This document shows positions 4,944 to 36,461 of a stretch of DNA of 64,000 nt, one piece after another. The translations under genes were made by a program, and so were the position numbers. Source of the stretch: Rhizophagus irregularis (taxonomy: Eukaryota > Glomeromycota > Glomeromycetes > Glomerales > Glomeraceae). The notes under the pieces are model-generated. The model worked only from the letters and a program-made list of their open reading frames with translations. It did no database searches and had not been told where the DNA came from. The DNA is taken from NCBI RefSeq assembly GCF_026210795.1, contig NC_089457.1:1736001-1800000 (forward strand). Direction: 5' to 3'. How positions within the stretch are numbered: the first letter of the stretch is position 1; each line of letters begins with the position of its first letter.

Positions 4944-5397
4944 ATATATAAAAAAAAACAAGTATAATGAAAAATATACCTTTATGTTTATTTCTAAATA
5001 TAAAAATAAAAAAAAATATTAATAATATTATTTCATAATAACTAAGTAAAGAATTTGTTTAGTTTGGTTTAAATAGTTTTAAATAAAAAGTTTAAGAGAA
5101 AGGTTTTTACAACGGAAAGAAAAAAAAATAAATAAAGTGCGAAATATAAATACTTAAATCATGTGATCGATCGCTTGATTACAATAACAAATTCTGATTA
5201 GGCCATAGATTTTATATCAATCCGGATTATTATAATTAATAAAAATGCATTTAATGTTCATACTACTCACTAATCACTATACTATTTATACTAGAATTAC
5301 ACTACAAGTTAAACTCTTTATCGCTTTAAATAATATAAAACCCTACTTATATATACTAATTAGTCACAAATCAGGTAGCCTATTGGTCACCTATCAT
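4944..5397. other. Intergenic, nothing recognised
   Basis: AT-rich sequence with no ORF or clear repeat, ending at the CCTATCAT target copy (5390-5397) of the large hAT-type element. Confidence 0.5.
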
Positions 5398-5404
5398 TAA
5401 AGAT

Positions 5405-5595
5405 AGGTCCTCAATTGATTTCCAAAATCTGCAATATTGCGGATTTTAGAAATTAATTGCGCTTAGTAATTTACAAATCCGCAAATAATTTGCAAATCTG
5501 CAAATCTGCAAACCCGCAAATAATCTGCAAATCTATATAGTATCACAAATAATCTGCAAATTCGCAAATAATTTACATTATCGCAAATTTACGAA
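5405..5595. repeat. Left subterminal GCAAATAATTTGC array of the hAT element
   Basis: Short direct repeats of AATCTGCAAAT and CCGCAAATAAT follow the left end. The same words in inverse orientation precede the right end at 14180-14340. Subterminal repeats of this kind are known transposase-binding sites in hAT elements. The match between the two ends supports the element boundaries. Confidence 0.65.
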
Positions 5596-5780
5596 TAAGT
5601 GAATAAAATTGTCCACTTTTAGTATATAAATAAATTTGGTTATATTTAATTGCAAAAATTAAATTAACATGATTTATGAGTTTACAAAATGGACAAAATT
5701 GTCCACTTTTTAGTATATAAATAAATTTGGTTATATTTAAATTAACATGATTCAAAATGGACAAAATTATCCACTTTTGA
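5594..5780. repeat. Three copies of the AAAATTGTCCACTTTT dyad repeat
   Basis: The near-palindrome TGGACAAAATTGTCCA (7-bp arms, 2-bp centre), or its half, appears three times. Between the first two copies lies a repeated block of about 60 bp containing TAAATTTGGTTATATTTAA. The same dyad forms long arrays at 10440 and 13190. Confidence 0.7.
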
Positions 5781-21044: not shown

Positions 21045-21971
21045 TTATTGAAATTTTTTTACCCTTTTATTATTATTATTCATGAACGTATTATCATCTT
21101 TAAAAAACATTAATTCTACTTTTCTATTACTCAAAATCTCAGCTTGATTAATATGATTAATTTCTAAATTTGAAACCCTCTCATTCAATCTTTGTATCAT
21201 ATTCATGAATTTTTCCATCTGTCGTTCCAATCTATCCAGCCTATCACCCTCATTATTAACTGGTGTAGGATTAATATTCTGTTGATTCCAAGGTTTTCTT
21301 ACTGGTTCTTGTGTCTCTTGTTGTTTTCCTTTTCCTTTGTAAGATTGAGATGGACCTTGACTTGATGTTAAAACATTTGCTCTTACATTGGGTACTGTCT
21401 TAATTTTCTTTGCAGCCTCAGCATAATTTGAAGGACCTTGTAATGGCATTTCTTGTTCACCTTCCTCCCAATTGTGCATACCTTCTGACTTATCAGATTG
21501 ATATTGTGAATTTCTCAGAAATAATGGTCTGAATCCCATACTTGGTCTGGGTGCTTTTACTCCATATCTACTATAAATCTGTTGATATACTTCATGTGTT
21601 GATGACATGTTTCTTTTCCTTTGATTTTCTGGACATGTTCTGACTCAATGATAGGGAGAACTACAAACGTGGCATGTGACTGCATCATAATTAATGAAAA
21701 CTAAGCCTCGATTGTTGAAAGAGAATTTTTTTCTTAGGGCATTATTAAAGTCGTTCTCATTATCAAAAAAGACAAATGCAAACCTTTTTTTCTCATAATT
21801 TTTTGAAAACCTATTCTTAAATACAAAACATGATTTCGCCTTCATTTGTATGATAATATCTTTCAAATCTGCAGCGTATGTACCTACGGGTAAATTAGCT
21901 AATTTCAACCTATATTTAAAACGTAAATTCCTTTCGTCCTTAGTTAAGTTAGATGGAAAAATCCTAAACGC
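21045..21971 (-). pseudogene. LINE ORF1, C-terminal part: RRM-like region and CCHC knuckle
   Basis: This continues the ORF1 segment at 34824-35413, from which the Gypsy insertion separates it. The junction reads ...CKYA|FRIFPSNL in frame after removal of one ACGC copy. It includes a second RRM-like fold (LKLANLPVGTYAADL ... RFAFVFFDNENDF) and a zinc knuckle C-x2-C-x4-H-x4-C (CHVCSSPYH[stop]VRTC). It then has an A/Q/P-rich stretch and a coiled coil (LDRLERQMEKFMNMIQRL). The stop within the knuckle (about 21642) disables it. The annotated piece that appears to start at 22004 reads through from LTR sequence and is not a real start. Confidence 0.8.
21968..21971. repeat. Gypsy target duplication, left copy (ACGC)
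   Basis: ACGC immediately precedes the left LTR and recurs at 34824-34827 after the right LTR. Confidence 0.9.
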
Positions 21972-22657
21972 TGTCACCCACGTCTGCCACCCGTGGATAA
22001 ACACCTCTTTCTCATTTAACTTATTTCTCGTTACTTTGCTTGGTTTAGATTTTGTTTTTCTTTTAACTTCTCGCTTTCTTTCTCATATATCCGTAGTATT
22101 TATTCTCAATACTACTGCTCATTCATAATATTCCCAAAATATTATGCTGCCTGTAATATTTATTCTTTCAAATATTACCATCTTATTTCTTATAAACTGC
22201 GAGAGTTCTCCTAACTTCTTATATTTCATACAATAAAACGAGAATAACTCCTCTTACTTTACTTTTCGGGACTTAATAATAATATTAATTAATTCTCAAG
22301 CGTACAATGAGCATATTCAAGATAACTTTTAATAATTAATATTTATTTTATTAAATTTGAGTCAAAACTGACTGCGGAATTCCTAACGAATCCCACCTAT
22401 ATTTATACATTTTTAAGAAAACTATTTCTACCACTTCTAACTTTTCTACTAATAAAAATTTAAGAACAATAAGAAAATAAAGATATATTATCATATGACT
22501 ATCTTGTGACTAAACTAAACTAAACTATAAATATTATTTTATCGGTTAATTATTTATCCTTCGGCTAATTATTTATCCATCGGTTAATTATTTATCCTTG
22601 TTCTATTCGGTCTTTTATTCATCTGCTCACGTGATTATCCTGATTTCTCGGGTTACA
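21972..22657 (-). repeat. Gypsy 3' LTR
   Basis: The LTR reads TGTAACCCGAG... to ...GGGTGACA on the element strand and matches 34138-34823 at every position compared. A G7-containing purine-rich stretch (22661-22675) lies just upstream in element sense and is the likely polypurine tract. Confidence 0.95.
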
Positions 22658-22675
22658 GCTATCCCCCCCAAGAAA
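22658..22675 (-). promoter_or_regulatory. Likely polypurine tract
   Basis: On the minus strand the sequence before the 3' LTR reads TTCTTGGGGGGGATAGC. It is adjacent to the LTR, where plus-strand priming occurs in Gypsy elements. The C just before the LTR is atypical. Confidence 0.6.
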
Positions 22676-22688
22676 AATTTGAGTCCCA

Positions 22689-23876
22689 TCAAATTCTAAT
22701 TATAACTTCGAAACTTGACCTGTCTATATATTCCTTCAATAATTCTCCATTTACTGGCGTTTTCTGTATTCTTCCCTCCATAGTTTTAATTTTATAAGAT
22801 CCTTTAGAAATTATTTCGTGTATATAATACGGTCCTTTCCATTTTTCTTCTAGTTTTCCAGACCATTGTTTTTCTTTTGCTGCATCATAATATAGTACTT
22901 TATCCCCTATTTGAAAGTTCTTTTTCGTCTTATATTTCTTATCATGATATTTCTTCTGTTTTTCTTGAGATTTTTCTATATTCTCTCTGGCTCGGCTTCT
23001 AATGTTCGGTAGATCTTCCATTAAACTATTAATCCTTTGTGTTATTGTAACATTTTCATCTTCCATATTTAGTAATGTCCTCATTTCCCTTCCATATATT
23101 AGATATCCTGGTTTTAACTTGGTCGAATCATTCTTTTTTGTTCTATATGCAAATAAGACTCCTGGTATTCTTAAATCCCAATCTTTAATGTTACTCAATT
23201 TTGCTAATGATTCACATAGTGTCTTATTGAACCTTTCTATTAATCCATTCGTCTTCGGGTGATAAGGTGTCGAAAAATTGTGTTTTATCTGAAATTCCCT
23301 CATTAATAATTCTACTAATTTGTTATTGAAATGACTTCCCCTATCACTTAATATCTTCTTTGGACATCCGTGTCTACATATTATATCTTCATAAATGAAT
23401 CTTGCAATTTCTTTAGCATCTGCTGTTTCTAAGGCTCTAGCTTCTGGCCATTTCGTAAAATAATCCATTGCCGTAACTATGTATCTATTATTTCTTTCTG
23501 TTATTGGTAACGGTCCTACAACATCTATTCCAATCTGATAAAATGGTTCTTTAACTTTTATTACATTTAATTCGTGTTTTCCAATCGGTTTTCCTCTTCT
23601 TTGACAACTATTGCATGATTTAACATATATTTCTATATCTTGTCTCATTCCATTCCAGTAATATTTCTCTCTAATCCTTTCATATGTTGCATCTATTCCA
23701 AAATGTCCAGATAATTCATGGTCGTGTGCAATATACATTAATCCTTCAAACTCATATTTTCTTATTACTCTCAATTCTCTATTATCCTTTATTCTATATA
23801 ACAAACCATCTTTCATCCTATAGTGTTGTTCATTATCTATATTTTTAATTATCTCATTATATTTATCTTCTTCCAT
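22689..23876 (-). CDS. Gypsy integrase
   Basis: This 395-residue ORF carries a complete Gypsy-type integrase that inserts the cDNA into the genome. It has the zinc-binding HHCC set H51, H58, C88, C91 and the DDE core D118 (GIDVVG), D178 (LSDRG) and E214 (GLIERF), with 35 residues between D178 and E214. A C-terminal chain-binding region follows (GDKVLYYD ... WKGPYYI). No chromodomain is visible at the end. It is its own ORF, not fused to RT; its ATG overlaps the end of a 50-residue upstream ORF by 14 nt. No damage is seen. Confidence 0.95.
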   Translation of the reverse strand: MEEDKYNEIIKNIDNEQHYRMKDGLLYRIKDNRELRVIRKYEFEGLMYIAHDHELSGHFGIDATYERIREKYYWNGMRQDIEIYVKSCNSCQRRGKPIGKHELNVIKVKEPFYQIGIDVVGPLPITERNNRYIVTAMDYFTKWPEARALETADAKEIARFIYEDIICRHGCPKKILSDRGSHFNNKLVELLMREFQIKHNFSTPYHPKTNGLIERFNKTLCESLAKLSNIKDWDLRIPGVLFAYRTKKNDSTKLKPGYLIYGREMRTLLNMEDENVTITQRINSLMEDLPNIRSRARENIEKSQEKQKKYHDKKYKTKKNFQIGDKVLYYDAAKEKQWSGKLEEKWKGPYYIHEIISKGSYKIKTMEGRIQKTPVNGELLKEYIDRSSFEVIIRI

Positions 23877-24015
23877 TAATTAGTATATCTTCTATTTCTT
23901 CTTCAAAAGGTAAAATAAACCTAATATTTTTATCTTCAAATAACACGCAGTGATAATTCGTATTCCTGTGTATGATGTAAATATATATTCCTATTCCAAT
24001 ATTTTCAGTAGTCAT
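23863..24015 (-). CDS. 50-residue ORF linking pol and integrase
   Basis: The start codon lies two bases after the pol stop (TAA-AA-ATG). Its stop lies 14 nt inside the integrase ORF, in another frame. The product begins MTTENIGIGIYIYIIHRNTN and contains an acidic C-terminal stretch (EEEIEDILIN). No family is recognised. The spacing suggests coupled termination-reinitiation across pol, this ORF and integrase; alternatively it is a remnant of a former fusion. Confidence 0.55.
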   Translation of the reverse strand: MTTENIGIGIYIYIIHRNTNYHCVLFEDKNIRFILPFEEEIEDILINGRR

Positions 24016-24017
24016 TT

Positions 24018-26339
24018 TTATTTTTCCAATAGCTTTTCTACTCGTTTATATACTTTTTTCCAACTTTTGTCATCGTTTTTAATTTTAATTCTCCTATATT
24101 TTCCTTTATTCTCATAAATATTCTGATGCTCTTTAAACATTTTCACCATGTCCATGTATTCCTCTTCGTTCAACGTTTCATATGATGTTTTATGTCCTTC
24201 ATTACTTTTCTTAGTTTCTCTTCCAATATAATTATTCCAACATTCTTTATTCTCTAAGAAAATTATTATCGCATTATCTATAATATCTTTATATTTAAAT
24301 ATCTCTTTCTCCATTTTATGATTCCCATATGGAGTAATATATCCTCTGTCAAAACTTTTGGTCTTTTGATAAAAGTATTCACAATATGGTGACTTATCCA
24401 GTATTATAATGTCTTCATCTGTAAATTCAACTATTCTCCTATTGATTTCTTCTACAACTTGTTTTCTAAATAACCATTCATATTCTTTTGAAGGTTCCTC
24501 AAATCTCTTATCATCATTTCTTCTTCTTTTAAACTTATTAAATATTATTTTTAAATCATCCTTTTCTTTTAATCGTTTAATTATATTTTCTACTATGGTG
24601 GATTTCCCTACACCATCAACCCCATCAACAATAATAATCTGTGGTTTACTCTTCCTTCCTAATTTCTTTAATAATTCTTTTTCTGTCTTTTCTTCTAAGT
24701 TCAGTAATATTGCTTCTTTATCATTAAAATATTTCATATCATCCCATTTTCCCTTAAATCTTCTAGCGTCGAACCATTCATTTCCTGATCTAACATATCT
24801 CAGCTTTTTCTCTTTATTATTTTCCATTTTCATTATTTCTTGACTTAAGTCTCCAGGGTCCCTTTTTATAACTTTCTCTTCAAATTCTAGTCTTGATAAC
24901 GCATCTGCATTCTTATTTTCTTTACCATTTCTATGTATTACTTCAAAGTCATATTGTTGTAACTCCATTACCCATCTTGCTCTTCTTCCTGTAGGTACTT
25001 TAGCATTCATTAATCCTTTTAACGCAGCATGATCCGTTATAACCGTAAATTTTCTTCCTGCTAAGAACTTATGGAAATACTTGATCCCCCAGAATATTGC
25101 TAAACATTCTAATTCTGTTATTGCATAATTCTTTTCTGCTCCCACTAAACTTCTACTAGCATAGGCGATAACAAATTCTTTATTTTCTTCATTTTTCTGA
25201 GATAATACTGCTCCTAACCCTTCTCCTGACGCGTCTGTAATCAATATAAACTCCTTTTCGAAATTAGGGTGATCTAATACTGGTTTCTCCATTAATCTTA
25301 TTTTTAATTCTTCAAATGCTTCCTGCTGTTTCTCTGTCCATTCAAATGGTACATCCTTTTTAACTAAGTGATATAAAGGTTTTGCTATTTTCGCAAAATT
25401 CTTTATAAATCTTCTATAATATGAGCACAATCCTAAAAATGATCTCACTTGTGTAACAGTTTCTGGTATCTTTATTTCTTTAATCTTCTCCACTTTCTTT
25501 GCATCTGGTTTCAAACCATCTCTTCCAACTATATGTCCTAAAAATTCTATATTTCGTTCACCAAACTTACATTTCTTCAATTTCACAATCAAGTTGTTTT
25601 TCTTTAATTTGTTCAACACTTTATCGATATGTTCCACATGTTCTTCAAAATTTTTTGAATAAATCATTATATCATCTAGATATACTATTACAAATTCTCC
25701 AATATATTCTTTTAATATCTCATCCATTATCCTCTGAAATGTTCCTGGTGCATTCTTTAAACCAAATGGCATAACATTATATTCATATAATCCTTGTGAA
25801 CATATAAATGCTGTCTTTTCTTTATCTTCTTCTACCATTTCTACTTAATGATACCCTGCCGCTAGATCCAAACTCGTAAACCATCTCGCTGTTCTATATT
25901 TTTCTAATAATTCGTCTATTCTTGGTAATGGGTATGCATCCGACTTAGTTATATTATTCAATTTCCTATAATCAATGCAAAATCTATAATTTCCTGTTTT
26001 CTTTCCTGCTAGTGTTACTGGAGACGCCCATGGACTCCATGACTTTCTAATTTTCCCCATTTTTAATAACTGTTCAACTTCTTTCTTTATAAACTTTCCC
26101 TTTTCCTCGGTCTCTTTATACCTCTTCTGTGCTATTGGTTCTTGACCTTCTTTAATTTCTATTTTATGTCTAACAGTGTCTACCTTTCCTAATTTTTCTC
26201 CATCGTATTCAAATATCTCTTCATAACTTTTGATTAGCTTTATTATACCATCCTTTCTTTTACCTGTTACTTCTCCCAAATTTATCTTTTTATCGAACTT
26301 TTCCCATTTAGTTTCATTTTTATCATTTTCATTTATCAT
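24018..26339 (-). CDS. Gypsy pol: RT, RNase H and a thymidylate-kinase-like domain (one nonsense codon)
   Basis: The first part (26339-25848) has the RT motifs SPWASPV, RFCIDYRKLN and SLDLAAGYH. A TAA at 25845-25847 replaces a residue that is usually Gln, and the frame then continues (VEMVEEDKEKTAF). Numbered from the second part (25838), residues 1-150 complete RT (MPFGLKNAP, catalytic YLDD 53-56). Residues 195-318 are RNase H (TDAS 201-204, ELE 242-244, TDHAAL 268-273, NADALSR). After a charged linker, residues 396-604 form a P-loop kinase. Its Walker A is GVDGVGKST (406-414), with DKSPYCEYFYQ (481-491), like the DR-S-YQ signature of thymidylate kinases, and DRGY (497-500). The kinase is in frame with no break, so the fusion is read directly. 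The domain could phosphorylate dTMP or a deoxynucleoside. Which substrate is unknown. Confidence 0.9.
24021..24653 (-). other. Thymidylate-kinase-like domain within pol
   Basis: This is the C-terminal roughly 210 residues of the pol ORF, the usual size of a whole thymidylate kinase. The Walker A lysine, the aspartate of the DRS-type motif and the YQ pair are present. The motif has Lys for Arg and Cys for Ser. Base composition and codon use look like the flanking pol sequence, so the capture does not look recent. Other P-loop nucleoside kinases remain possible. Confidence 0.8.
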
Positions 26340-26423
26340 TTTAAAATTTATTTATTATTTTATTTCTTATTATTATTTCAACAATTTTACATTTTGGGAC
26401 AATTTTAGCCCTTTTTATATAAT
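26340..26423 (-). other. Spacer between protease and pol
   Basis: The 84-nt spacer is AT-rich with many stops in the shared frame, so pol is not made by simple readthrough from protease. It contains AAAAAGGGCTAAAATTGTCCC, similar to AAAAAGGGCAAAATTTGTACC in the gap at 31540-31610. Confidence 0.5.
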
Positions 26424-27059
26424 TTAATCCTCATTTTCACTAGATATTTCACTATCATCAGACGAGCTTTCTTCACTGGAACTTTCACTATCTTCTTGAG
26501 ACTCATTTTCTTTTACTACTTCCTTTTCTTTTATTGCTTCTTTTACTGTATATAACTTCTTTCCTTCTTCTTGTTCATAATCAGATTCTCCTGATTCACT
26601 TTCATAGTCGGATTCTTCTGACTCTTCCACTTGTTTAATATACCACACTGGTATGTCTATTATTTCTTCATCATTTTCTAATTCCAATATCTTTTCTTTA
26701 TAGTTGATATTTGCATTCCATTTATCCAATAAATCATTTCCTATAATCATTTCTTTTTGCTTTGAATCTATTACATCTAATGTTACTGGTAATACTAATT
26801 CTTTATAAACTTTTATTTCTGTATTCACTTTTCCTAATGAAGCAATCTTTCCTCCATCTGCTAATGTACACGTAATATTACTTTTTCCTTTTATTGGTAT
26901 ATTTAACTCTTTTCTTAATTTCTCTGTTATTACACTTATTGCTGCCCCTGAATCTATTACAACTTCGATTTCCTTATCATTTATTATAAACTGTGTTTTC
27001 ATTGCCGTTGTAACTTCTTTTTCTCCACTTATTTCAGTCTTTTTCACCTCCGAGTGTAG
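26424..27059 (-). CDS. Gypsy aspartic protease, in frame with gag across UGA-CUA
   Basis: The retropepsin core has the active-site triplet DSGA (in VVIDSGAAISVI) and a downstream IIGNDLLDKW, as in Gypsy proteases. A long acidic Glu/Ser tail follows. No ATG precedes the active site at a sensible distance. Upstream, the frame is open back to the gag stop, and the two are in one frame: gag ends ...KTE, then UGA CUA, then HSEVKKTEISG. UGA followed by CUA is a known leaky-stop context. The protease is therefore probably made as a gag-protease readthrough product. The start given is the codon after the UGA. Confidence 0.8.
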   Translation of the reverse strand, partial: LHSEVKKTEISGEKEVTTAMKTQFIINDKEIEVVIDSGAAISVITEKLRKELNIPIKGKSNITCTLADGGKIASLGKVNTEIKVYKELVLPVTLDVIDSKQKEMIIGNDLLDKWNANINYKEKILELENDEEIIDIPVWYIKQVEESEESDYESESGESDYEQEEGKKLYTVKEAIKEKEVVKENESQEDSESSSEESSSDDSEISSENED

Positions 27060-30000
27060 TCACTCTGTTTTATCTCCTTTTCTTATCATTTTCTTTATCA
27101 TTCTTCCTTGTTGTTCCACAATATTAAGTAGATTTCCATAATCTACTGGATCTTTTGATTTAACTCCTATAATTTTATCTTCTCTTGGTCTACGTTTTCC
27201 CCCTGCTTCTTTCCATCTATTTATTCCTTCCATTGTGTCATAATATTCTCCTCTCTTTTTACTCCATTTATATCTTTTTGGGATATTCGTATTGTCTGGT
27301 CCTATTGGTCTATTATACATTGGTTGCTCATCCTCCACATATTCTTCCATCGGAACTTCTCTTCTATTTCTATATTTATGTTCTTCTTTCCCTCTTTCCT
27401 CAATCTCTTTGTCTAAATTTGGCTTTCCAAAATTTTTCCATCCTTGTTTAGGATTTATTCTATTACTTCTCCTTCTTTCTTGTACTGGGTTATCTTTTTC
27501 ATACAAATCACGATTGTAGTTATACAATTGTGGATCATCATATTCATTATTTTCATAGTCGTAATCATCATCTGATTCTTCATTTTCGTAGTCATAATCT
27601 TCTTCATGGTCTTCTATATCCATTAAATTAACTCTTCTCTCATTTCTTCTGATATTATTTCCTAATGGACATCTAGTCGCAAAATGACCTCTTCTATTAC
27701 ACCTAAAACAAGTTATTTCATCATAATTAATTGGTGCTCCATTATTTCTTCTCTGATTCAATTGGTTTCTATTCCCATTATTATTCAACTCCCTTTCCAT
27801 ATTTCGTACTTGTTTTTCCAATTTGGCAATTCTCATTTTCTCTAATTTTTCCACTAAATCGTCCTCATAATCTTCCTTTAACGGTTTGTTAAACTTATTT
27901 TCTTGTTCATTTCTTTTATCACTGTTTTGTCTAATATCTTGAATATTATTATTCTGAATATTATTCTGATTTAACAAACTTTGATTCATCATACTTTGTA
28001 TCATCATTTGATTTCCTGTCTCTATAATTTTAGCTCTTTCAACAGCTGCATCCAACGTCGCTGGTGCTGTTTCCATTACTCTTGATATCATAACTGGATT
28101 CAGTCCCTGAATAAAATAGTTAATTTTATACATTTCTCCTAAATCATTAACTCCTGGTGCTATTTTTCTTATTAACTTTCTGAATCTGCTTGCATATGCT
28201 CCTACTTTCTCATTCATTTCTTGTTTAATCGTTTGTAACTCTCTAATCCATTGATTCTTTCTAACATCGCTTGCATAATGTTCCTTCAGTATTTTAGTAA
28301 AATCATTATTCCCATGGTTATGACCATTGTCCTCCCATCTTTGTATATCTCCTTGTTTGTTTTCATACCAATCAGCTGCTTCTCCTCGCATACATGCTGC
28401 TGCTTTTCTTATTTTATCTATTTGATTAGCTCCTTCTTGATAACCATTTGCGCTCCAAACAACCTCAAAATCTCTAATCCACTCATATGGATCTTGATCT
28501 CCTCCATAATATAATGGTAAATCTCCTACTTTCGCTGCTCTATTCACTGGTCCTGTCAAATTTCCAACTCTTGTTTCAACTTGATTAATTCTTCCAAATA
28601 TTGTATCTGCTGGTGGAACTAAAGCATTCCAATCATTTCCTATATCATGTCCTAATATTATATTTCCAAACGTTCTCAAATCTTCTCTGATGTGATTTCT
28701 TTCTGCCATATTCAATAATATATTCTCTTGAGATAAATCCTGTAAATTATAATCAGATAGTTCACTTTCTGTATCAGAATTTTCAATATCAGAATCCTTA
28801 ATATTTAACGAATTATTCGAATCTGAATTTTGACTTAAGCCAAAATCTTCCGTATTTATAATATTTTCCTCATTGTTTTCAATTCTATTTTCATCAAAGT
28901 CTTCAGAATTTTCTTCCCAAATCTCATATTCTTCTGGATCTAATATCTCTCCAATCTTTTCCGAATCATCTGAATTATCATTTTCTTCTTCACTTTCTTC
29001 AATCTCGAATTTCCTTAAGTACTCATCCAATATTCTCTTTATTTCCCTTTCTGATTCATTTTTATATTCTTGAAATTTTCTTATAAAGTCTGCACTTAAT
29101 ATATCAACATCTCTATATCCCATACTTATTAATCTTAATAATTCTCCATCAGAAACTTCAATTTTTAAAACTTTAATTAAGTTTCTTAGCTGTTCTAATC
29201 TTTTCTCTATTTCCGTTTCATCATCCGATTTATTCTCGTCTTCTAAATTTTCTGGTCCTTTTTCATAACAACTTTTACATATCTTTTCTATAAATTCTTT
29301 ATTGTATTCTACCGCTTCTATTGCTTCTTTCTTTAATATTATTTTATTGCACATTGGGCATTCTATCGTATACATATAATGCCATATTCTTAACTCTTCT
29401 TCTATTCTTTCGTCATCTAATTCTTCAATAGTTTTGTAAAAACTCATAAATTCTTTAGTCTTCATTATTTCATATTCCACTCTGAAATTTATTATTCGCC
29501 TTATCTCTTCAGTATCAATTTCATAACCATTTTCTAACCAATAATTTCTGTATATTCTTTCTATATGTTCATCTCCTTCATTCGAACTTGATTCTCCTAA
29601 ATCATCTGAATTTTCCAGTTCTCCTACATCACTTTGTTCTTCAACAAAACCTTTTGCTTCTACAATTTTCTTTATTATCTTATCTGTTATGTCGTCATCT
29701 ATCCATGGTTTCGGGTATTTATTTCCATCCCACCATTGATATGTTATACTTTTCTGAAACTTTCTGACTTTCTCTCTATTCTCTTCTTCTACTATATTTT
29801 CTTCTAAATGCAATATTTCCTTGAAATATCTCATTGTGCTATATCCTTTGTTTTTAATGGTTATTGGTTCTGTTTTTTCTAACCATTCCTCAAATTTTGC
29901 AAATCTCATATCTAATTCATCATCTTCTATAATATATCTATATGTTAACAATTCCCTATTTCCTAATAAATTCTCTTCTGTTTGTTCATCTAATATAAGT

Positions 30001-30140
30001 TCATTATCTTCATTCAGTATGTAATGTTCACATATTACTTTTATTACTGATATAATTCCTATTTTTCTGTAGTCCGGTTTATTTCTATACCTTATTGATC
30101 TTACGACTACATCCAACAGTTTTTCTCCTTCTTTTCTCAT
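27060..30140 (-). CDS. Gypsy gag with long N-terminal extension and CCHC knuckle
   Basis: The ORF has 1026 residues, about twice a usual gag. A gag core of retrotransposon type lies around residues 540-700 (DPYEWIRDFEVVW, CMRGEAADWYE, YASRFRKLIRKIAPG, YFIQGLNP). A CCHC zinc knuckle follows at about 809-823 (CFRCNRRGHFATRC). The N-terminal half is acidic and contains a paired-cysteine module (CPMCNK ... KICKSC, about 260-290) of unknown role. The C-terminus is rich in Asp/Glu/Tyr and then basic. Its ATG overlaps the TGA of the preceding ORF (ATGA at 30137-30140), and its own stop is UGA-CUA. It forms the particle and binds RNA. Confidence 0.92.
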   Translation of the reverse strand: MRKEGEKLLDVVVRSIRYRNKPDYRKIGIISVIKVICEHYILNEDNELILDEQTEENLLGNRELLTYRYIIEDDELDMRFAKFEEWLEKTEPITIKNKGYSTMRYFKEILHLEENIVEEENREKVRKFQKSITYQWWDGNKYPKPWIDDDITDKIIKKIVEAKGFVEEQSDVGELENSDDLGESSSNEGDEHIERIYRNYWLENGYEIDTEEIRRIINFRVEYEIMKTKEFMSFYKTIEELDDERIEEELRIWHYMYTIECPMCNKIILKKEAIEAVEYNKEFIEKICKSCYEKGPENLEDENKSDDETEIEKRLEQLRNLIKVLKIEVSDGELLRLISMGYRDVDILSADFIRKFQEYKNESEREIKRILDEYLRKFEIEESEEENDNSDDSEKIGEILDPEEYEIWEENSEDFDENRIENNEENIINTEDFGLSQNSDSNNSLNIKDSDIENSDTESELSDYNLQDLSQENILLNMAERNHIREDLRTFGNIILGHDIGNDWNALVPPADTIFGRINQVETRVGNLTGPVNRAAKVGDLPLYYGGDQDPYEWIRDFEVVWSANGYQEGANQIDKIRKAAACMRGEAADWYENKQGDIQRWEDNGHNHGNNDFTKILKEHYASDVRKNQWIRELQTIKQEMNEKVGAYASRFRKLIRKIAPGVNDLGEMYKINYFIQGLNPVMISRVMETAPATLDAAVERAKIIETGNQMMIQSMMNQSLLNQNNIQNNNIQDIRQNSDKRNEQENKFNKPLKEDYEDDLVEKLEKMRIAKLEKQVRNMERELNNNGNRNQLNQRRNNGAPINYDEITCFRCNRRGHFATRCPLGNNIRRNERRVNLMDIEDHEEDYDYENEESDDDYDYENNEYDDPQLYNYNRDLYEKDNPVQERRRSNRINPKQGWKNFGKPNLDKEIEERGKEEHKYRNRREVPMEEYVEDEQPMYNRPIGPDNTNIPKRYKWSKKRGEYYDTMEGINRWKEAGGKRRPREDKIIGVKSKDPVDYGNLLNIVEQQGRMIKKMIRKGDKTE

Positions 30141-30442
30141 TCTCTCAAATTCTTTATTTCTTTTCTTTTACTAGATGGATAATTTTCTTCCCCATCCTTT
30201 CTTGTTAGTATTATGTATTCCATTAATTTCATATACGTATTTCTGTTATAACTCATTGCTTCTAATATTACTTTTTGAAAAATTTTCCAAAATCTTTTAA
30301 ACCAATCTTCTATCTTTATTTCATCAATACCATAACATTTCAGGCATGAAGGATCTACTTGATATTCCTTCCTCGATTCATTATGTTTTTCTATTTCATG
30401 TTTATTTTTGATCTCTTCTAATTCATCGTATATTTCAGACAT
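30137..30442 (-). CDS. 101-residue ORF overlapping the gag start
   Basis: This unrecognised small protein is charged, with a CLKC pair (SCLKCYGID) and an aromatic stretch (WFKRFWKIFQKV). It ends ...KNLRE and its TGA shares bases with the gag ATG. Tight coupling to gag suggests both are translated from one RNA. Confidence 0.55.
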   Translation of the reverse strand: MSEIYDELEEIKNKHEIEKHNESRKEYQVDPSCLKCYGIDEIKIEDWFKRFWKIFQKVILEAMSYNRNTYMKLMEYIILTRKDGEENYPSSKRKEIKNLRE

Positions 30443-30858
30443 CTTGATTTATTTTATTTACCTATTTACTTGCAAAATGATTTCATTTCATATTTCCCGT
30501 CTATTTATATTTTTATTCATATAGTATTTATTCGTTTATCATTTCAATCTTTATTTCTTTTATATTTTCATGTTTACAACTTTCTACTACATTTCTTTAT
30601 TATATTTTATATTACATGGTATTCTATTACTTATAACTTGATATTCTTCTAACTTCATTAATTCTTAATTAGTTTAACGTCTTTCCGGACAACTATTTGT
30701 CCCTAAATTCTTATTATTTACATTTTTCCTGTATTTCCATCTTAACCGCTTGATTTCTTCACGCTTATTATTCTTCTTATGATATTCTTTTATTCCACCT
30801 GTTATCTTCTAACGTCTTTTTGTATATTTATTTCATCCTTTAATATTCATCTTATTCT
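30443..30858 (-). other. AT-rich gap between small ORFs of the Gypsy element
   Basis: No ORF on the element strand. The sequence TTTAGGGACAAATAGTTGTCCGG (minus strand, about 30686-30708) contains the dyad GGACAA...TTGTCC, which recalls the motifs in the other intercistronic gaps. Confidence 0.4.
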
Positions 30859-31203
30859 TCAATTCCTATATTCTGTCTGTTCATAAATTTTCTGATTATT
30901 CCTGTATGCGGCTATTTTACATTCTCCCATTCGCAATATATTCATATTTTTGTGTTCACATCTTTCTTCATATTCATTAAGGTATTCCATTCCTTTTCGA
31001 AAGTATTCTTTACATAACGTTTCTATTTTATTTCTTAAACTTTCTTCGCTTTCTTCCCTAACTTCGAAATAATTAATTTCTTGTAACGTTACATTCTCTA
31101 TTTTCTCGCAATATTTACATTTTACTTCACCGTCTATTCTAATAAAACCTTTTCCATTTATATTTTCAAATACCGTTGTTTCCATTTCTCGTATTTTATT
31201 CAA
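30859..31203 (-). CDS. 114-residue ORF with paired cysteines
   Basis: The family is not recognised. It has CKYCEK near residue 30 and later CEHKN and GECK, so it may bind zinc. The size and cysteine spacing resemble the cysteine module in the gag N-terminus (CPMC ... CKSC), which may mean duplication within the element. Confidence 0.5.
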   Translation of the reverse strand: MNKIREMETTVFENINGKGFIRIDGEVKCKYCEKIENVTLQEINYFEVREESEESLRNKIETLCKEYFRKGMEYLNEYEERCEHKNMNILRMGECKIAAYRNNQKIYEQTEYRN

Positions 31204-31272
31204 AATTTCTCATTTATTATTATTTTATTTTGTCATTATTCATTTCCTCCTATTTTTATAATAATTGATTAC

Positions 31273-31533
31273 TCAGTTCCTACCATCACTTGAATATTTA
31301 TCAATTATTCTAAATTTTAAATTCAACCATTTGATCTCATTTTTATCCCAATCTGCAATACACATTCCTTCATCTTCAAACCATTGTAGCGCATTTCCTA
31401 ACAAATGTGTCTTTGCAACCCTAAATATTCTTTTATCATCCTTAATTCCTATTTTCGACAAATATTTCTCAACTTGATTCGTCCATTCTTTCGAATTTTC
31501 TCCTTTTATACCATAAAATATTGGTATTTCCAT
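31273..31533 (-). CDS. Short gag-like ORF (second gag module)
   Basis: The 86 residues match the beginning of a Gypsy gag core: IPIFYGIKGENSKEWTNQVE, a helix with DDKRIFRVAKTHL, then LGNALQWFEDEG and IADWDKNEIKW. This is the pattern of the main gag core (DPYEWIRDFE ... GEAADWYE ... IQRWED) but truncated, so the element carries two gag-like modules. It may be a degenerate duplicate or a separate small capsid-like protein. Confidence 0.65.
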   Translation of the reverse strand: MEIPIFYGIKGENSKEWTNQVEKYLSKIGIKDDKRIFRVAKTHLLGNALQWFEDEGMCIADWDKNEIKWLNLKFRIIDKYSSDGRN

Positions 31534-31539
31534 TTTAAT

Positions 31540-31665
31540 CTTTCGTATTACTTCTTAAAATATATATACTTCATATTCTTTTCACGGTACAAATTTTGCC
31601 CTTTTTTATAACTTTATTTTAAACATTTCAAGGTTCTCAGACTTTAATCTCTATATTTTGACCTT
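31540..31665 (-). other. Intercistronic gap with GGGC..TTGT motif
   Basis: AT-rich gap. On the minus strand it carries AAAAAGGGCAAAATTTGTACC about 50 nt before the next ORF, close to the motif in the protease-pol gap. Confidence 0.4.
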
Positions 31666-32571
31666 TCATTCCTCTATTTCTTGTCCTCTTATAAGATCTT
31701 CCGCTATTTCTGTTATTTCTTTCTTAGTACAACTATCTACTGATGTAATATCACAATTACTTTCGAATACTCTTTTCTTTCCTATCTTATTAACTAATAA
31801 ACAAACTTTTTCTGCTTTTTCCATCATTCTTTTTAATCCTTTTCTTGTTCTTACTACATCTGTTTCCAACATTTCCTTATATATCTTTTCTCGTTCCTCT
31901 TTATCTGTTCTCCTTTTTCTATTTTTCCCTTTTCGCTTATTAATTTCTTGTTCTAATCTTTCTTCAAACCTTTTTCCTAAATAATAATGTATTTCCAATA
32001 ACATCTGATTATTCCTTCTCATTTTATGACATAATTGTAATAACGATAGTCCTCCATTCTCCTTTTCTAACATTTCTTCGTCAATATCTTCCTTCTTATG
32101 TTTTAATCTAATCATTAAAACTTGGTAATTTTCTGATCTAACTATTTCTTCATTTTCTTCACTATCATCAGTTCCATTTTTCTCACTACTATTATCTTCT
32201 TCCTTTTCTCTAACCTTATCATTCTTGTCATCTATTTCCATTAATTCTGATCTTTCTTCATCAGCTATTCCATCATTATTTATTTCATCTATTACTATAT
32301 TATCATTATCATTCTCATCATTTTCTACATTAAATTCTGACTCATCATTAACATTCCTATTTCCTGAACTATTATCACTTTCTTCTATCATATCTTCATC
32401 AAGTTCAATTTTTTCTTCGTTAAATATTCTTTCAGTAACTATCTCGCATGTGACAATCCAATTCTTTAGTCTCATGTCATTTTCATCATAAAATTCCACT
32501 TCAATACAATCATTTAGTTTTTCTTCAACTTTTCTCAATTCTCCTTTCGATATTTTAACTTTTAATTTCAT
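31666..32571 (-). CDS. 301-residue acidic/basic ORF at the 5' end of the Gypsy element
   Basis: This is the first long ORF after the leader. The central region is highly acidic (Asp/Glu/Asn/Ser), followed by a basic, helical C-terminal half (RLEQEINKRKGKNRKRRTDK, then RTRKGLKRMMEKAEKV). No known domain is visible. The basic patch could bind nucleic acid or act as a nuclear localisation signal; both are inferred. It is intact. Confidence 0.6.
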   Translation of the reverse strand: MKLKVKISKGELRKVEEKLNDCIEVEFYDENDMRLKNWIVTCEIVTERIFNEEKIELDEDMIEESDNSSGNRNVNDESEFNVENDENDNDNIVIDEINNDGIADEERSELMEIDDKNDKVREKEEDNSSEKNGTDDSEENEEIVRSENYQVLMIRLKHKKEDIDEEMLEKENGGLSLLQLCHKMRRNNQMLLEIHYYLGKRFEERLEQEINKRKGKNRKRRTDKEEREKIYKEMLETDVVRTRKGLKRMMEKAEKVCLLVNKIGKKRVFESNCDITSVDSCTKKEITEIAEDLIRGQEIEE

Positions 32572-32984
32572 GATTTATTATTTCTTATTTATTTATTATT
32601 TTATTAGTCAGTCGTCCCTGCCCAGGGGCAACTATATATATACTCTTAATTTGATATTTTCCTATTATTCTATTGGTTATTCATTCTTATTGTTCCATCA
32701 ACCGTTCTCAGTATTTCATTAAATTCTTTATTTCTTTTATAATTCTTTATTTCTCAACTTCAATCTCCTTTTCTCTAATTATTTCTTTCGCTCTTTAATT
32801 CCTTTCTACTTTCTTTCTTAACTTTTCTCTTACTGTGCCCTATACCATTCACATGATCTGTATCACTCACGTGACTTGTATAACATTCCAATTCTTTTAC
32901 TGTGCCTTGTACTACTCACATGATCTGTATTACTCACGTGACTTGCCGCAGTATAATCTCATTTTATTCACTCACATTTGTAAT

Positions 32985-33050
32985 TGAACTGAAGATCATA
33001 AGCCCAATTGTTCAAACACTTACCATTATACCAACAACATATAGTTGTTA
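32985..33050 (-). other. Degenerate tRNA-like stretch in the Gypsy leader
   Basis: On the minus strand TTGGTATAATGGTAAG resembles an A box, GGGCTTATGATC an anticodon loop and AGTTCAATTA a B box, at about tRNA spacing. The T stem and most of the acceptor stem do not pair, so it is not a functional tRNA gene. It may be a captured remnant or chance. Confidence 0.25.
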
Positions 33051-34117
33051 CATTTAAACCTTGGATTCATATTTAATTTTTATAACTCCGTTCTTACAAC
33101 ATCAAATATTCAACAATACTATTTCTTTTTATTTCATACTTGATACAATTCTTTTATTATACTTCTCATAATCATTAACATCATTCTTTCTTTTATTATA
33201 GTTGGATAGCCACGGATTTTTAAGCGATCAACTTACTAAAATTTCTGTTGACAAACGCCCCTGGTGACACAACTATTTTTTTTTTTTTTTTTTTTTTTTT
33301 ATTCTCTTACTTGACCAGCAAGTTTCTTCAAAAATAAATTAATATGAGGGTTTAACACCGCTTTACCCACAACGTACAATAATAATAATGGGGGTTTCTT
33401 ACAGTTTAACCTGCAACTTACAATCTAGAGGGTTTATTACAGCTTAACCCACAACTTACAATCTTATAGTGTTTTAAAGGTTCCCACATAACCACTAGTG
33501 TTTTTCTTGTAAGGTTCCCACGCAACCTCTTGGGTTTATAGTTCACCCGCAACTTTTGCATTATTTCTTTTATTAGATTTACTTTCTTACCGTGAAATCT
33601 CAACACGGTCTTATTTTCTTTTATAGTCAATTATCGTGACTAACTTCACTCCAATAATTCTTATAGAATTATCTCCTTTTATTTCCAATAACCTATACTA
33701 GGCTTATCTCTACCTTCATATCGAAGTATGATAGTTTCTAGGTTTGTCATTAACAACTTTTTATTTCTTATTTATCAGGCTTATACATCGTCTAGTGTAT
33801 TTCTTTCATTTCATGTTAGTCCTTTTTCATACTAACATACACTTCTTGTTAGTCCTTTTTCATACTAACATATACTTCTTTCAACTTCTTATAATAAACT
33901 TCATAATTTCCTGATAAATCTCCTAATCACAAGCAATACACGCTTTGATTATCCTTCATTACTTGTACTTCTTTTATTTCTCATTGTACACTTAATAATT
34001 TTTTTTTTTATACTCAAGTCCAGATCCTCTAGGAATACCACACAGGTACCTAACTATATGAAGATAGTCAGAATGATCATATTTCATTTCTTTTAATCTT
34101 TATTGATCATTTCCTTT

Positions 34118-34134
34118 CTCGGAAGCATGCACCA
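34118..34134 (-). promoter_or_regulatory. Likely primer-binding site
   Basis: Three bases inside the 5' LTR the minus strand reads TGGTGCATGCTTCCGAG, beginning with TGG as expected for pairing with a tRNA CCA end. I cannot say which tRNA, and it is not the usual initiator-Met sequence. Confidence 0.5.
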
Positions 34135-34137
34135 AAT

Positions 34138-34823
34138 TGTCACCCACGTCTGCCACCCGTGGATAAACACCTCTTTCTCATTTAACTTATTTCTCGTTAC
34201 TTTGCTTGGTTTAGATTTTGTTTTTCTTTTAACTTCTCGCTTTCTTTCTCATATATCCGTAGTATTTATTCTCAATACTACTGCTCATTCATAATATTCC
34301 CAAAATATTATGCTGCCTGTAATATTTATTCTTTCAAATATTACCATCTTATTTCTTATAAACTGCGAGAGTTCTCCTAACTTCTTATATTTCATACAAT
34401 AAAACGAGAATAACTCCTCTTACTTTACTTTTCGGGACTTAATAATAATATTAATTAATTCTCAAGCGTACAATGAGCATATTCAAGATAACTTTTAATA
34501 ATTAATATTTATTTTATTAAATTTGAGTCAAAACTGACTGCGGAATTCCTAACGAATCCCACCTATATTTATACATTTTTAAGAAAACTATTTCTACCAC
34601 TTCTAACTTTTCTACTAATAAAAATTTAAGAACAATAAGAAAATAAAGATATATTATCATATGACTATCTTGTGACTAAACTAAACTAAACTATAAATAT
34701 TATTTTATCGGTTAATTATTTATCCTTCGGCTAATTATTTATCCATCGGTTAATTATTTATCCTTGTTCTATTCGGTCTTTTATTCATCTGCTCACGTGA
34801 TTATCCTGATTTCTCGGGTTACA
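34138..34823 (-). repeat. Gypsy 5' LTR
   Basis: 686 bp, same ends and internal sequence as 21972-22657, followed by the second ACGC copy (34824-34827). It should contain the promoter of the element. I cannot place a TATA box with confidence in such AT-rich DNA. Confidence 0.95.
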
Positions 34824-35413
34824 ACGCATATTTGCAAAATCTCAATGACCATAAGTCTTTAAATTTTTCTTCCACTTGTTTGCCGTTGAATCTAACTACT
34901 ACTTTATAGTATAAATTTTTAACATTAAATTTGAGGGTTTTAATTGGTCAAAAACTTTTCAAATATACTTCTAACATCTGCTTATCCACATCTAGTGGAA
35001 CATCCCAGATTTTAATTTCATAATCGTTAAGATTATCATGTTACTAATTGTTGATTACTTCCAATTTAGCAAATCTTACATCATTATCATCTGCAATTTT
35101 CTTGGCACAAACTTCAGCTGCTTGTGCTTCCATTTCATATGTTGCTCAAATCACTTTAATACCCTTAATGGAAGTCGGTGCCAATGAAATTAGCCTAAGC
35201 ATATCCGAAATTTTCCTATATATAAAATTTTTCTTAGCAATAATATTATCGCCTGGAAGATTATCTTGCAGAATGAAAATACTAAAATGTTTAGTCTTCT
35301 TAATAATAGTCCAACTGTCATCTTTCTTCGCTTCTTTAGAAGTTGTATTCTGACCAGGGTGACTTGCGTTAGTTTGAGCATACATAGAGGCCTCCAGCCC
35401 TACGTTAATATTA
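34824..35413 (-). pseudogene. LINE ORF1, middle part (RRM-like)
   Basis: This continues from the start at 45187 across the TIR element and into 21971 across the Gypsy element. An RRM-like block YEIKIWDVPLDV ... IKTLKFNVKN ... VVVRFNGKQVEEKF is visible. In-frame stops occur near 35141 (KVIxATYEME), near 35040 (two adjacent) and near 34948. Upstream it reads NVGLEASMYAQTN. Confidence 0.8.
35412..35413. repeat. TA target duplication of the 9.7 kb TIR element, left copy
   Basis: TA precedes CATCAGG at 35414 and follows CCTGATG at 45090 (45091-45092). Keeping one TA makes ORF1 of the LINE read QTNSNINVGLEAS with no stop; keeping both would create a stop. Confidence 0.7.
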
Positions 35414-35429
35414 CATCAGGAAATTTTAT

Positions 35430-36090
35430 AGTGCGAAAAATTGCGTAAGTTTACGATTTTGTAAGTTTACGAAAATTTATGGCATAATATTTCGAAAAAT
35501 TTCAAAATATTACGTAAGTTTACAATTTCGTAAGATTTATGTGATATTACGGTTAAAATATTACGTAAGTTTTCAATATCGTAAGATTTACGCAATATTA
35601 CGGTCAAAATATTCTGCAAATTTACGAAACTGTAAACCTGCGTAATATTACGGTTGAAATATTTCGAAAATTTACGAAACTGTAAACCTGCGTAATATTA
35701 CGGTTGAAATATTTCGAAAATTTACGAAACTGTAAACCTGCGTAATATTACGGTTAAAATATTTCAAAAATTTACGAAACTGTAAACCTGCGTAATATTA
35801 CGGTTAAAATATTTCGAAAATTTACGAAACTGTAAACCTGCGTAATATTACGGTTGAAATATTTCGAAAATTTACGAAACTGTAAACCTGCGTAATATTA
35901 CGGTTAAAATATTTTGAAAATTTACGAAACTGTAAACCTGCGTAATATTACGGTCAAAATATTCTGCAAATTTACGAAACTGTAAACCTGCGTAATATTA
36001 CGGTTGAAATATTTCGAAAATTTACGAAACCGTAAACCTGCGTAATATTACGGTTGAAATATTTCGAAAATTTACGAGATTGTAAACTGC
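35430..36090. repeat. 50-bp tandem array with the palindrome CGTAATATTACG
   Basis: From about 35615 at least nine near-identical 50-bp units follow (AAATTTACGAAACTGTAAAC, CTGCGTAATATTACGGTTGA, AATATTTCGA). More diverged units fill 35430-35615. Each unit holds a 12-bp perfect palindrome. Position just inside the terminus fits protein-binding sites for transposition. Confidence 0.9.
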
Positions 36091-36461
36091 ATATGCAGTA
36101 GAACGTATACAAGGGGCATGTGATACTATTGAATAATCAAAAATAATATAAACACCTTTTCTTTTATATAAACACCTTTTTTTTTAAGTTTGGGAAAGCA
36201 AATTTATTTTTATTTACGAATTTTTTATTATTTACAATTTTTATGTTAAAAATTAAAGTAAATTCTAATTTTTATTATAACTTAATAAAAAAAATACACA
36301 TTTGATACTTGTTCGCTACTATTTTATAAAATAAGTACCCAGGCTGTACGGCGTGGACGTCAGTATCAGTCACAGCCCAAAAAAACGTGAGTCTCCAGCC
36401 GATATTTGGTACGGACTGGGCCTAGCTACTCACTTAATAAATAATAAAAAAATAAAAATAA

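Follow-up and report, generated by a model that had tools for sequence, protein, structure and literature searches.

Within a 64,000-nucleotide stretch of the Rhizophagus irregularis genome (the window; contig NC_089457.1, positions 1,736,001 to 1,800,000), a Ty3/Gypsy long terminal repeat (LTR) retrotransposon carries, in one open reading frame (ORF) with reverse transcriptase (RT) and RNase H, a kinase of the thymidylate kinase (TMPK)/deoxynucleoside kinase (dNK) fold. Such a kinase is a regular part of pol in four Gypsy families, in many copies and in several species, and it is under purifying selection. We consider it probable, at roughly 0.6, that a TMPK/dNK-superfamily kinase entered a Ty3/Gypsy lineage in Glomeromycotina and has been retained there as a functional component of pol, serving the supply of deoxynucleoside triphosphates (dNTPs) during reverse transcription. 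A pol-borne kinase suggests that the element helps make its own DNA building blocks; catalysis by the kinase, the choice of substrate, co-packaging with RT and a benefit to reverse transcription are what we infer.

The element and its kinase domain

The kinase ORF is one part of a larger element of 12,852 bp on the minus strand (Table 1). The two LTRs (686 bp each, TG...CA termini) show zero differences, and a 4-bp target-site duplication, ACGC, flanks the element at 21968-21971 and 34824-34827; the identity of the LTRs at every base, their ends and the duplication together indicate a young insertion. With LTRs, a target-site duplication, and gag, protease, RT-RNase H (RT-RH) and integrase in that order, the element belongs to Ty3/Gypsy (Metaviridae). 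From 5′ to 3′, several upstream ORFs that reach the cut-off for no Pfam family are followed by gag, aspartic protease, the two pieces of RT, RNase H, kinase, a 50-aa ORF and integrase, the last being an ORF of its own downstream of the kinase stop. An earlier reading made from the letters of the window (the sequence-only reading) had called the element nearly intact, which needs qualifying for RT, split in this copy by a single in-frame TAA (25845-25847), with both pieces in one frame.

The unbroken passage from RNase H through a linker into a kinase, described by the sequence-only reading, was borne out in the minus-strand ORF 24018-25838, which encodes 606 aa. The N-terminal part matches RVT_1, RT_RNaseH and RT_RNaseH_2 (Pfam E 2e-27 to 2e-37), and PHROG 761, "thymidylate kinase", covers kinase residues 1-208 of 211 (E = 1.8e-11; 1.4e-11 with a 213-aa version). 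PHROG 761 matches all 25 aligned kinase rows and PF02223 (Thymidylate_kin) 22 of them; one relative, P0015, scores 32.5 bits against PF02223 over profile positions 1-180 of 185, above the Pfam cut-off. The P-loop, GVDGVGKS, agrees with the pattern GxDGxGKS/T, at positions that are invariant or at least 90% conserved, and N41, K44, R45, R47, D49, F64, R65, N73, R75, E94, Y95, Y97, R147 and W200 are among the positions invariant in 25 of 25 rows. A chance P-loop or a frame artefact is ruled out by the PHROG 761 matches in every row together with the omega (dN/dS) values given below. Kinship with FtsY/SRP was also rejected: the best PDB sequence matches span only the linker, the P-loop and the first helix, and are therefore treated as P-loop resemblance.

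Copies, possible kinase exchange and selection

The search covered the 146.7-Mb genome (32 contigs; matches at E ≤ 0.001), and its counts are lower bounds, since 134 of 182 first-look candidates were scored for the kinase, 124 of 428 for integrase and 125 of 336 for RT-RH. At least 135 kinase matches were found (two pairs, on C15 and C17, being pieces of one copy each), 121 with no stop and 14 with one or more stops in the matched part. In 86 of the 135, RT-RH and integrase flank the kinase on its own strand, RT-RH upstream and integrase downstream, each at no more than 1.5 kb; the others have RT-RH only (17), integrase only (21) or neither (11, of which one or more are RT-deleted, e.g., C16:787232, L033), and the reversed order was found in 0. 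Seen from RT-RH, 102 of 125 matches have a kinase downstream and 12 an integrase without a kinase match, and 19 of 124 integrase matches are without an upstream kinase; missing partners may be unscored, the lists being lower bounds.

Family architecture was read from twenty 9.9-kb stretches. Among five A-type loci, three have RT, RNase H and kinase in one ORF of 777-779 aa (674 aa in L024, 626 aa in L025), and five family A loci other than the window copy (L002 to L006) have an open frame of this length. The corresponding ORF measures 779 aa in all three family B loci and 699-706 aa in five of eight family C loci, the other three being RT-deleted, and the integrase ORF comes next in the A, B and C loci, L033 excepted. 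Family D has an RT-RH ORF of 493 aa followed, in two of four loci, by a kinase-integrase ORF of 600-601 aa (465 and 503 aa in the others). From these layouts, the kinase is joined to the left-hand protein in A, B and C and to the right-hand protein in D. The charged linker is alike in A and B and largely absent from C and D. The RT-deleted loci (L032, L033 and L040, with a family C kinase) pass from Gag-side sequence straight into the end of RNase H and then an open kinase frame, and L032 and L040 retain integrase besides; by their layout, these loci look like possible non-autonomous derivatives.

L025 (the same place as L014) and L028 of family B are 99% identical in RT-RH over 343 residues and have similar linkers, whereas their kinases are 62% identical, with the switch in similarity near the P-loop; one pol backbone thus carries two different kinases. 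Between B and C, the kinases share 88% identity, compared to 64% for RT-RH, and the B integrase is nearer to that of A (78-80% to the window, vs. 57-59% for C). It seems to us an evenly balanced proposition that a Ty3/Gypsy lineage encodes its own deoxynucleoside monophosphate (dNMP) kinase as an integral, swappable pol cassette, one that would provide precursors of dNTPs where reverse transcription takes place and that families would exchange by recombination at the RNase H-kinase junction.

Selection was measured on 25 of 33 distinct kinase loci; eight were dropped because no single RT-RH match was long enough, by which the sample leans towards intact copies, and the partial locus L015 and six stretches that were duplicates (L021-L026) had been left out earlier. 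Codon models over the 25 loci with both parts gave the kinase an omega of 0.107 and RT-RH one of 0.077, in agreement with the earlier suggestion that the domain is kept by selection. In the tree model with omega = 1, kappa was fixed at 2.5, and the likelihood-ratio test (LRT) value of 607 is therefore rough. With kappa refitted per pair, omega = 1 was rejected in 12 of 12 kinase pairs (LRT 11.3 to 135.3), including L001-L012 (omega 0.039, dS 2.7), L028-L031 (0.065, dS 0.96) and L029-L031 (0.049, dS 0.26); the two highest omegas were 0.174 (L001-L005) and 0.149 (L037-L039), and those of five pairs are to be read as low and not as exact values, since dS exceeds 2.7 and rises to meaningless values (synonymous saturation). 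The constraint slightly weaker than that on RT-RH, together with the existence of a kinase-free family (E), suggests that the kinase function is helpful and not indispensable. The three outcomes that the sequence-only reading had named as speaking against its proposal (no kinase match, a single copy, no purifying selection) did not occur.

These data also bear on the possibility that the kinase is a passenger that one family took up recently and that does nothing for the element. Capture of extra ORFs by LTR elements is documented in passages of PMC5408684, and family E does without the kinase; however, an omega of 0.107 across families, near the RT-RH value (with several pairs synonymously saturated), and the spread of mostly stop-free copies (121 of 135) over four families and four named species make a passenger very improbable.

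Outside this genome, a first search returned 88 protein relatives and a profile search, which scored the best 8000 candidates by word sharing and may miss distant relatives, at least 116. The organisms named among the listed relatives are R. irregularis, R. clarus, R. diaphanus and Glomus cerebriforme only, and several relatives are labelled "thymidylate kinase" by their source. The most distant full-length relatives found are metagenomic Nudix-kinase fusions (P0103, P0111, P0119 and P0120; 45% identity to the window kinase for P0103, 38% for P0111), with an N-terminal Nudix domain at residues 9-103 in P0119 and 58-143 in P0103. They have the kinase family in common with the window element, including the DKSPY motif, which is present in the Nudix-kinase relatives with a complete stretch (P0103, P0111, P0119-P0123), whereas the searches found no Nudix domain beside the kinases of this genome; they possibly represent a different type of element, or a virus, in which nucleotide clean-up and kinase activity are paired. 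The idea of a Nudix partner here was rejected, as 117 P0119 matches begin at or beyond residue 93 and 105 P0103 matches at or beyond residue 114, with overlap of at most the domain end (widest in one decayed match, C17:2808647). With the patterns used, no viral relatives were confirmed in the IMG/VR scans (queries A1 and P0111) and no prokaryote relatives in the GTDB scan (query A1); in phage tblastn, P0119 gave no match and P0015 one weak match, the tmk of a Vibrio phage (31%, with 41% of the query covered). Close viral or prokaryote relatives were set aside on the strength of these scans and their patterns.

Proposed role, objections and known systems

In the scheme we favour, a Ty3/Gypsy ancestor in Glomeromycotina would have gained the kinase between RNase H and integrase, and the kinase would be made within the RT-RNase H protein (A, B, C) or the integrase protein (D). 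Lying within the Pol protein, it would be placed with RT in the particle, where it would be packed whether the element protease frees it or leaves it attached. It would then phosphorylate a dNMP with ATP, most probably thymidine monophosphate (dTMP) and perhaps dUMP, and so help to keep reverse transcription supplied with dNTPs, in an element of ~70% A+T, with the largest gain at low cellular dNTP pools; it may in this way raise dTTP at the particle, as the sequence-only reading proposed. The nuclei of the host fungus are mostly non-dividing, and dNTP supply can limit retroviruses in non-dividing cells.

Several observations weigh against this scheme. First, the profile check proposed by the sequence-only reading did return nucleotide kinases, but for the window ORF, from residue ~400, the PF02223 match (7.2e-5, 22.9-23.0 bits) stays below the Pfam cut-off of 27. 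Second, of the two TMPK motifs claimed, the P-loop stands and "DR" does not: Lys replaces Arg, which binds the dTMP phosphate in TMPKs, in 25 of 25 rows (DKSPY), and DKS presumably occupies the position of the TMPK "DR" or dNK "ERS" motif. Judged from the alignment, this invariant Lys is a mark of the kinase family, and the domain is therefore not classed as a plain TMPK. Third, the fold comparison matched both the TMPK and the dNK family and left TMPK tied with deoxycytidine/deoxyguanosine kinases (dCK/dGK), so that the fold does not set TMPK apart from dNKs. Fourth, some copies have damaged P-loops, and L035, with its first P-loop Gly changed, sits in an otherwise open 706-aa frame. Fifth, 11 of the 125 RT-RH matches have neither kinase nor integrase found nearby. 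Sixth, in family E, whose RT is 68-69% identical to that of the window, 11 RT-RH matches are followed by integrase at 197-205 nt with no kinase (a twelfth, with integrase 893 nt downstream, may contain a kinase missed by the search), and the element cycle can therefore proceed without one. Finally, separate host TMPK-like exons above the Pfam cut-off lie on C24 and C13, so that dTMP kinase is not missing from the cell.

In L041 of family E, RNase H ends in NADAMSR and is followed by a broken version of family A's short pre-integrase ORF, which makes the kinase a module present or absent ahead of that ORF. The RT tree does not separate the branching of C, D, E and A/B, and gives no preference between loss of the kinase in E and its never having been gained there.

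An active kinase acting on something else, e.g., salvaged deoxynucleosides, or as another small-molecule or polynucleotide kinase, with dTMP not the point, is unlikely in our estimate, though it deserves serious weight. The window kinase differs from known TMPKs (PF02223, the phage TMPKs of PHROG 761 and 2107, the solved S. aureus TMK) in its 12-14% identity to the listed solved TMKs, in having DK where they have DR, and in its location inside a retrotransposon pol. The profiles prefer TMPK, and PF01712 (deoxynucleoside kinase; dCK, dGK, Drosophila dNK) gives a weak match in 3 of 25 rows (E ≤ 0.01, best 3e-4). In addition, a basic KRRR stretch past strand 2, which suits phosphate binding, presumably sits where dNKs have their catalytic Glu. 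The profile preference and the KRRR stretch make dTMP the first choice.

A fold retained for a non-catalytic role, as a nucleotide sensor, an RT-integrase scaffold or a nucleic-acid binder via the basic loop, would accord with the change of DR to DK, the location inside pol, the many basic residues and the open frame of L035. The P-loop and the other presumed active-site positions are nonetheless among the best conserved, which would be odd for a scaffold, and we regard such a role as improbable.

Among the nearest precedents for the pol kinase are elements with dUTPase. According to passages of PMC5408684 and PMC6431247, dUTPase lies between RT and integrase in some retroviruses, and dUTPase-bearing LTR elements are known. 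Those of fungi, rotifers and planarians likewise hold a nucleotide-metabolism enzyme within pol, whereas the enzyme and the fold differ; in most bdelloid families, the dUTPase sits between protease and RT, whereas the window kinase sits between RNase H and integrase. No dUTPase appeared among the Pfam matches of ten scanned element ORFs (five at E ≤ 1, five at E ≤ 0.1; shorter ORFs lay outside the scan). Rotifer elements have also captured an exonuclease and an esterase (in passages of PMC5408684), and orchid Ty3/Gypsy elements are reported to have gained an m6A demethylase domain (PMC9289625), an enzyme and a host unrelated to those described here. In the literature searched, with subscription journals and preprints outside it, no description of a pol-borne nucleotide kinase in LTR elements was found; papers that mention both thymidylate kinase and retrotransposons concern other subjects, judged by title and abstract, the passages seen of PMC5408684, PMC6431247 and PMC3248453 do not mention a kinase, and the kinases in those of PMC8647823, on R. 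irregularis transposable elements, are of other sorts. Capture of a nucleotide-metabolism enzyme by an LTR element is thus already known, and a nucleotide kinase as that enzyme would, from its predicted identity, be new.

If the proposed role is true, the range of retroelement enzymes would extend beyond dUTPase, and dNTP supply would be marked as limiting in mostly non-dividing coenocytic fungi, a pol kinase being a direct route to more dNTP and allowing a test of that limitation on a retrotransposon. A ready natural comparison is offered by kinase-bearing and kinase-free families, and by the RT backbone that occurs with two kinases. For annotation, it matters that some "thymidylate kinase" or "hypothetical protein" entries of arbuscular mycorrhizal fungi and metagenomes are members of this retroelement kinase family.

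Element features and minor observations

Table 1. Window coordinates of the retrotransposon and its parts
Feature	Position	Strand	Evidence
Whole LTR retrotransposon	21972..34823	-	Identical terminal repeats, TG...CA, ACGC both sides
5′ LTR, 686 bp	34138..34823	-	Identical to 3′ LTR
3′ LTR, 686 bp	21972..22657	-	Identical to 5′ LTR
gag ORF, 1026 aa, Ty3_capsid / Retrotrans_gag and CCHC knuckle	27060..30140	-	Pfam 6.4e-13, 2.3e-9, 5.4e-4
Aspartic protease ORF	26424..27047	-	gag-asp_proteas 2.6e-11
RT N-terminal part, closed by in-frame TAA 25845-25847	25845..26339	-	RVT_1 1.2e-6
Remaining RT and RNase H, to NADALSR	24879..25838	-	RVT_1 2e-27, RT_RNaseH 2.1e-37
Charged linker, RNase H to kinase	24660..24878	-	Sequences and alignment
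Thymidylate-kinase-like domain, 213 aa modelled	24021..24659	-	
P-loop GVDGVGKS	24600..24623	-	G13, G18 invariant; V14, D15, G16, K19 ≥90% (25 aligned rows)
DKSPY motif	24384..24398	-	D88, K89, S90, P91, Y92 invariant, 25/25 rows
Invariant Arg, R147 of model, presumed LID (putative role)	24219..24221	-	Invariant column
50-aa ORF between kinase and integrase	23863..24015	-	Similar ORF in other loci
Integrase ORF, 395 aa, H2C2 zinc-binding and core	22689..23876	-	Integrase_H2C2 3.5e-21, rve 8.2e-13

The short ORF ahead of integrase stays below the cut-off for every Pfam family (DUF3908 comes closest, at 0.02) and has no Nudix match. It has family A counterparts in L021 and L024 besides the broken version in L041, and a 45-50 aa pattern, "..IIHxNxNYHCxLFEDK..FILPF..", recurs in the window (23863-24015, minus strand), in L024 (about 5370-5513) and in L041. 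In family B, an ORF of ~113 aa unlike that of A lies between kinase and integrase (L026, about 5388-5730, plus strand), uninterrupted in L026 but not in L027 or L028, and a short tandem TTTTTACAACACCTTAA-like repeat lies between it and integrase.

Upstream of the main gag, an 86-aa ORF (31273-31533, minus strand) appears gag-like by eye, with a sub-threshold Arc_capsid_dom match (E 0.055), and is possibly a second capsid-like piece. A candidate primer-binding site, TGGTGCATGCTTCCGAGA, lies at 34117-34134 (minus strand), three bases 3′ of the 5′ LTR; ARAGORN found no tRNA genes in the window. About 0.7 kb outside the 5′ LTR, a tandem array with a 50-bp unit occupies window positions 35491-36187.
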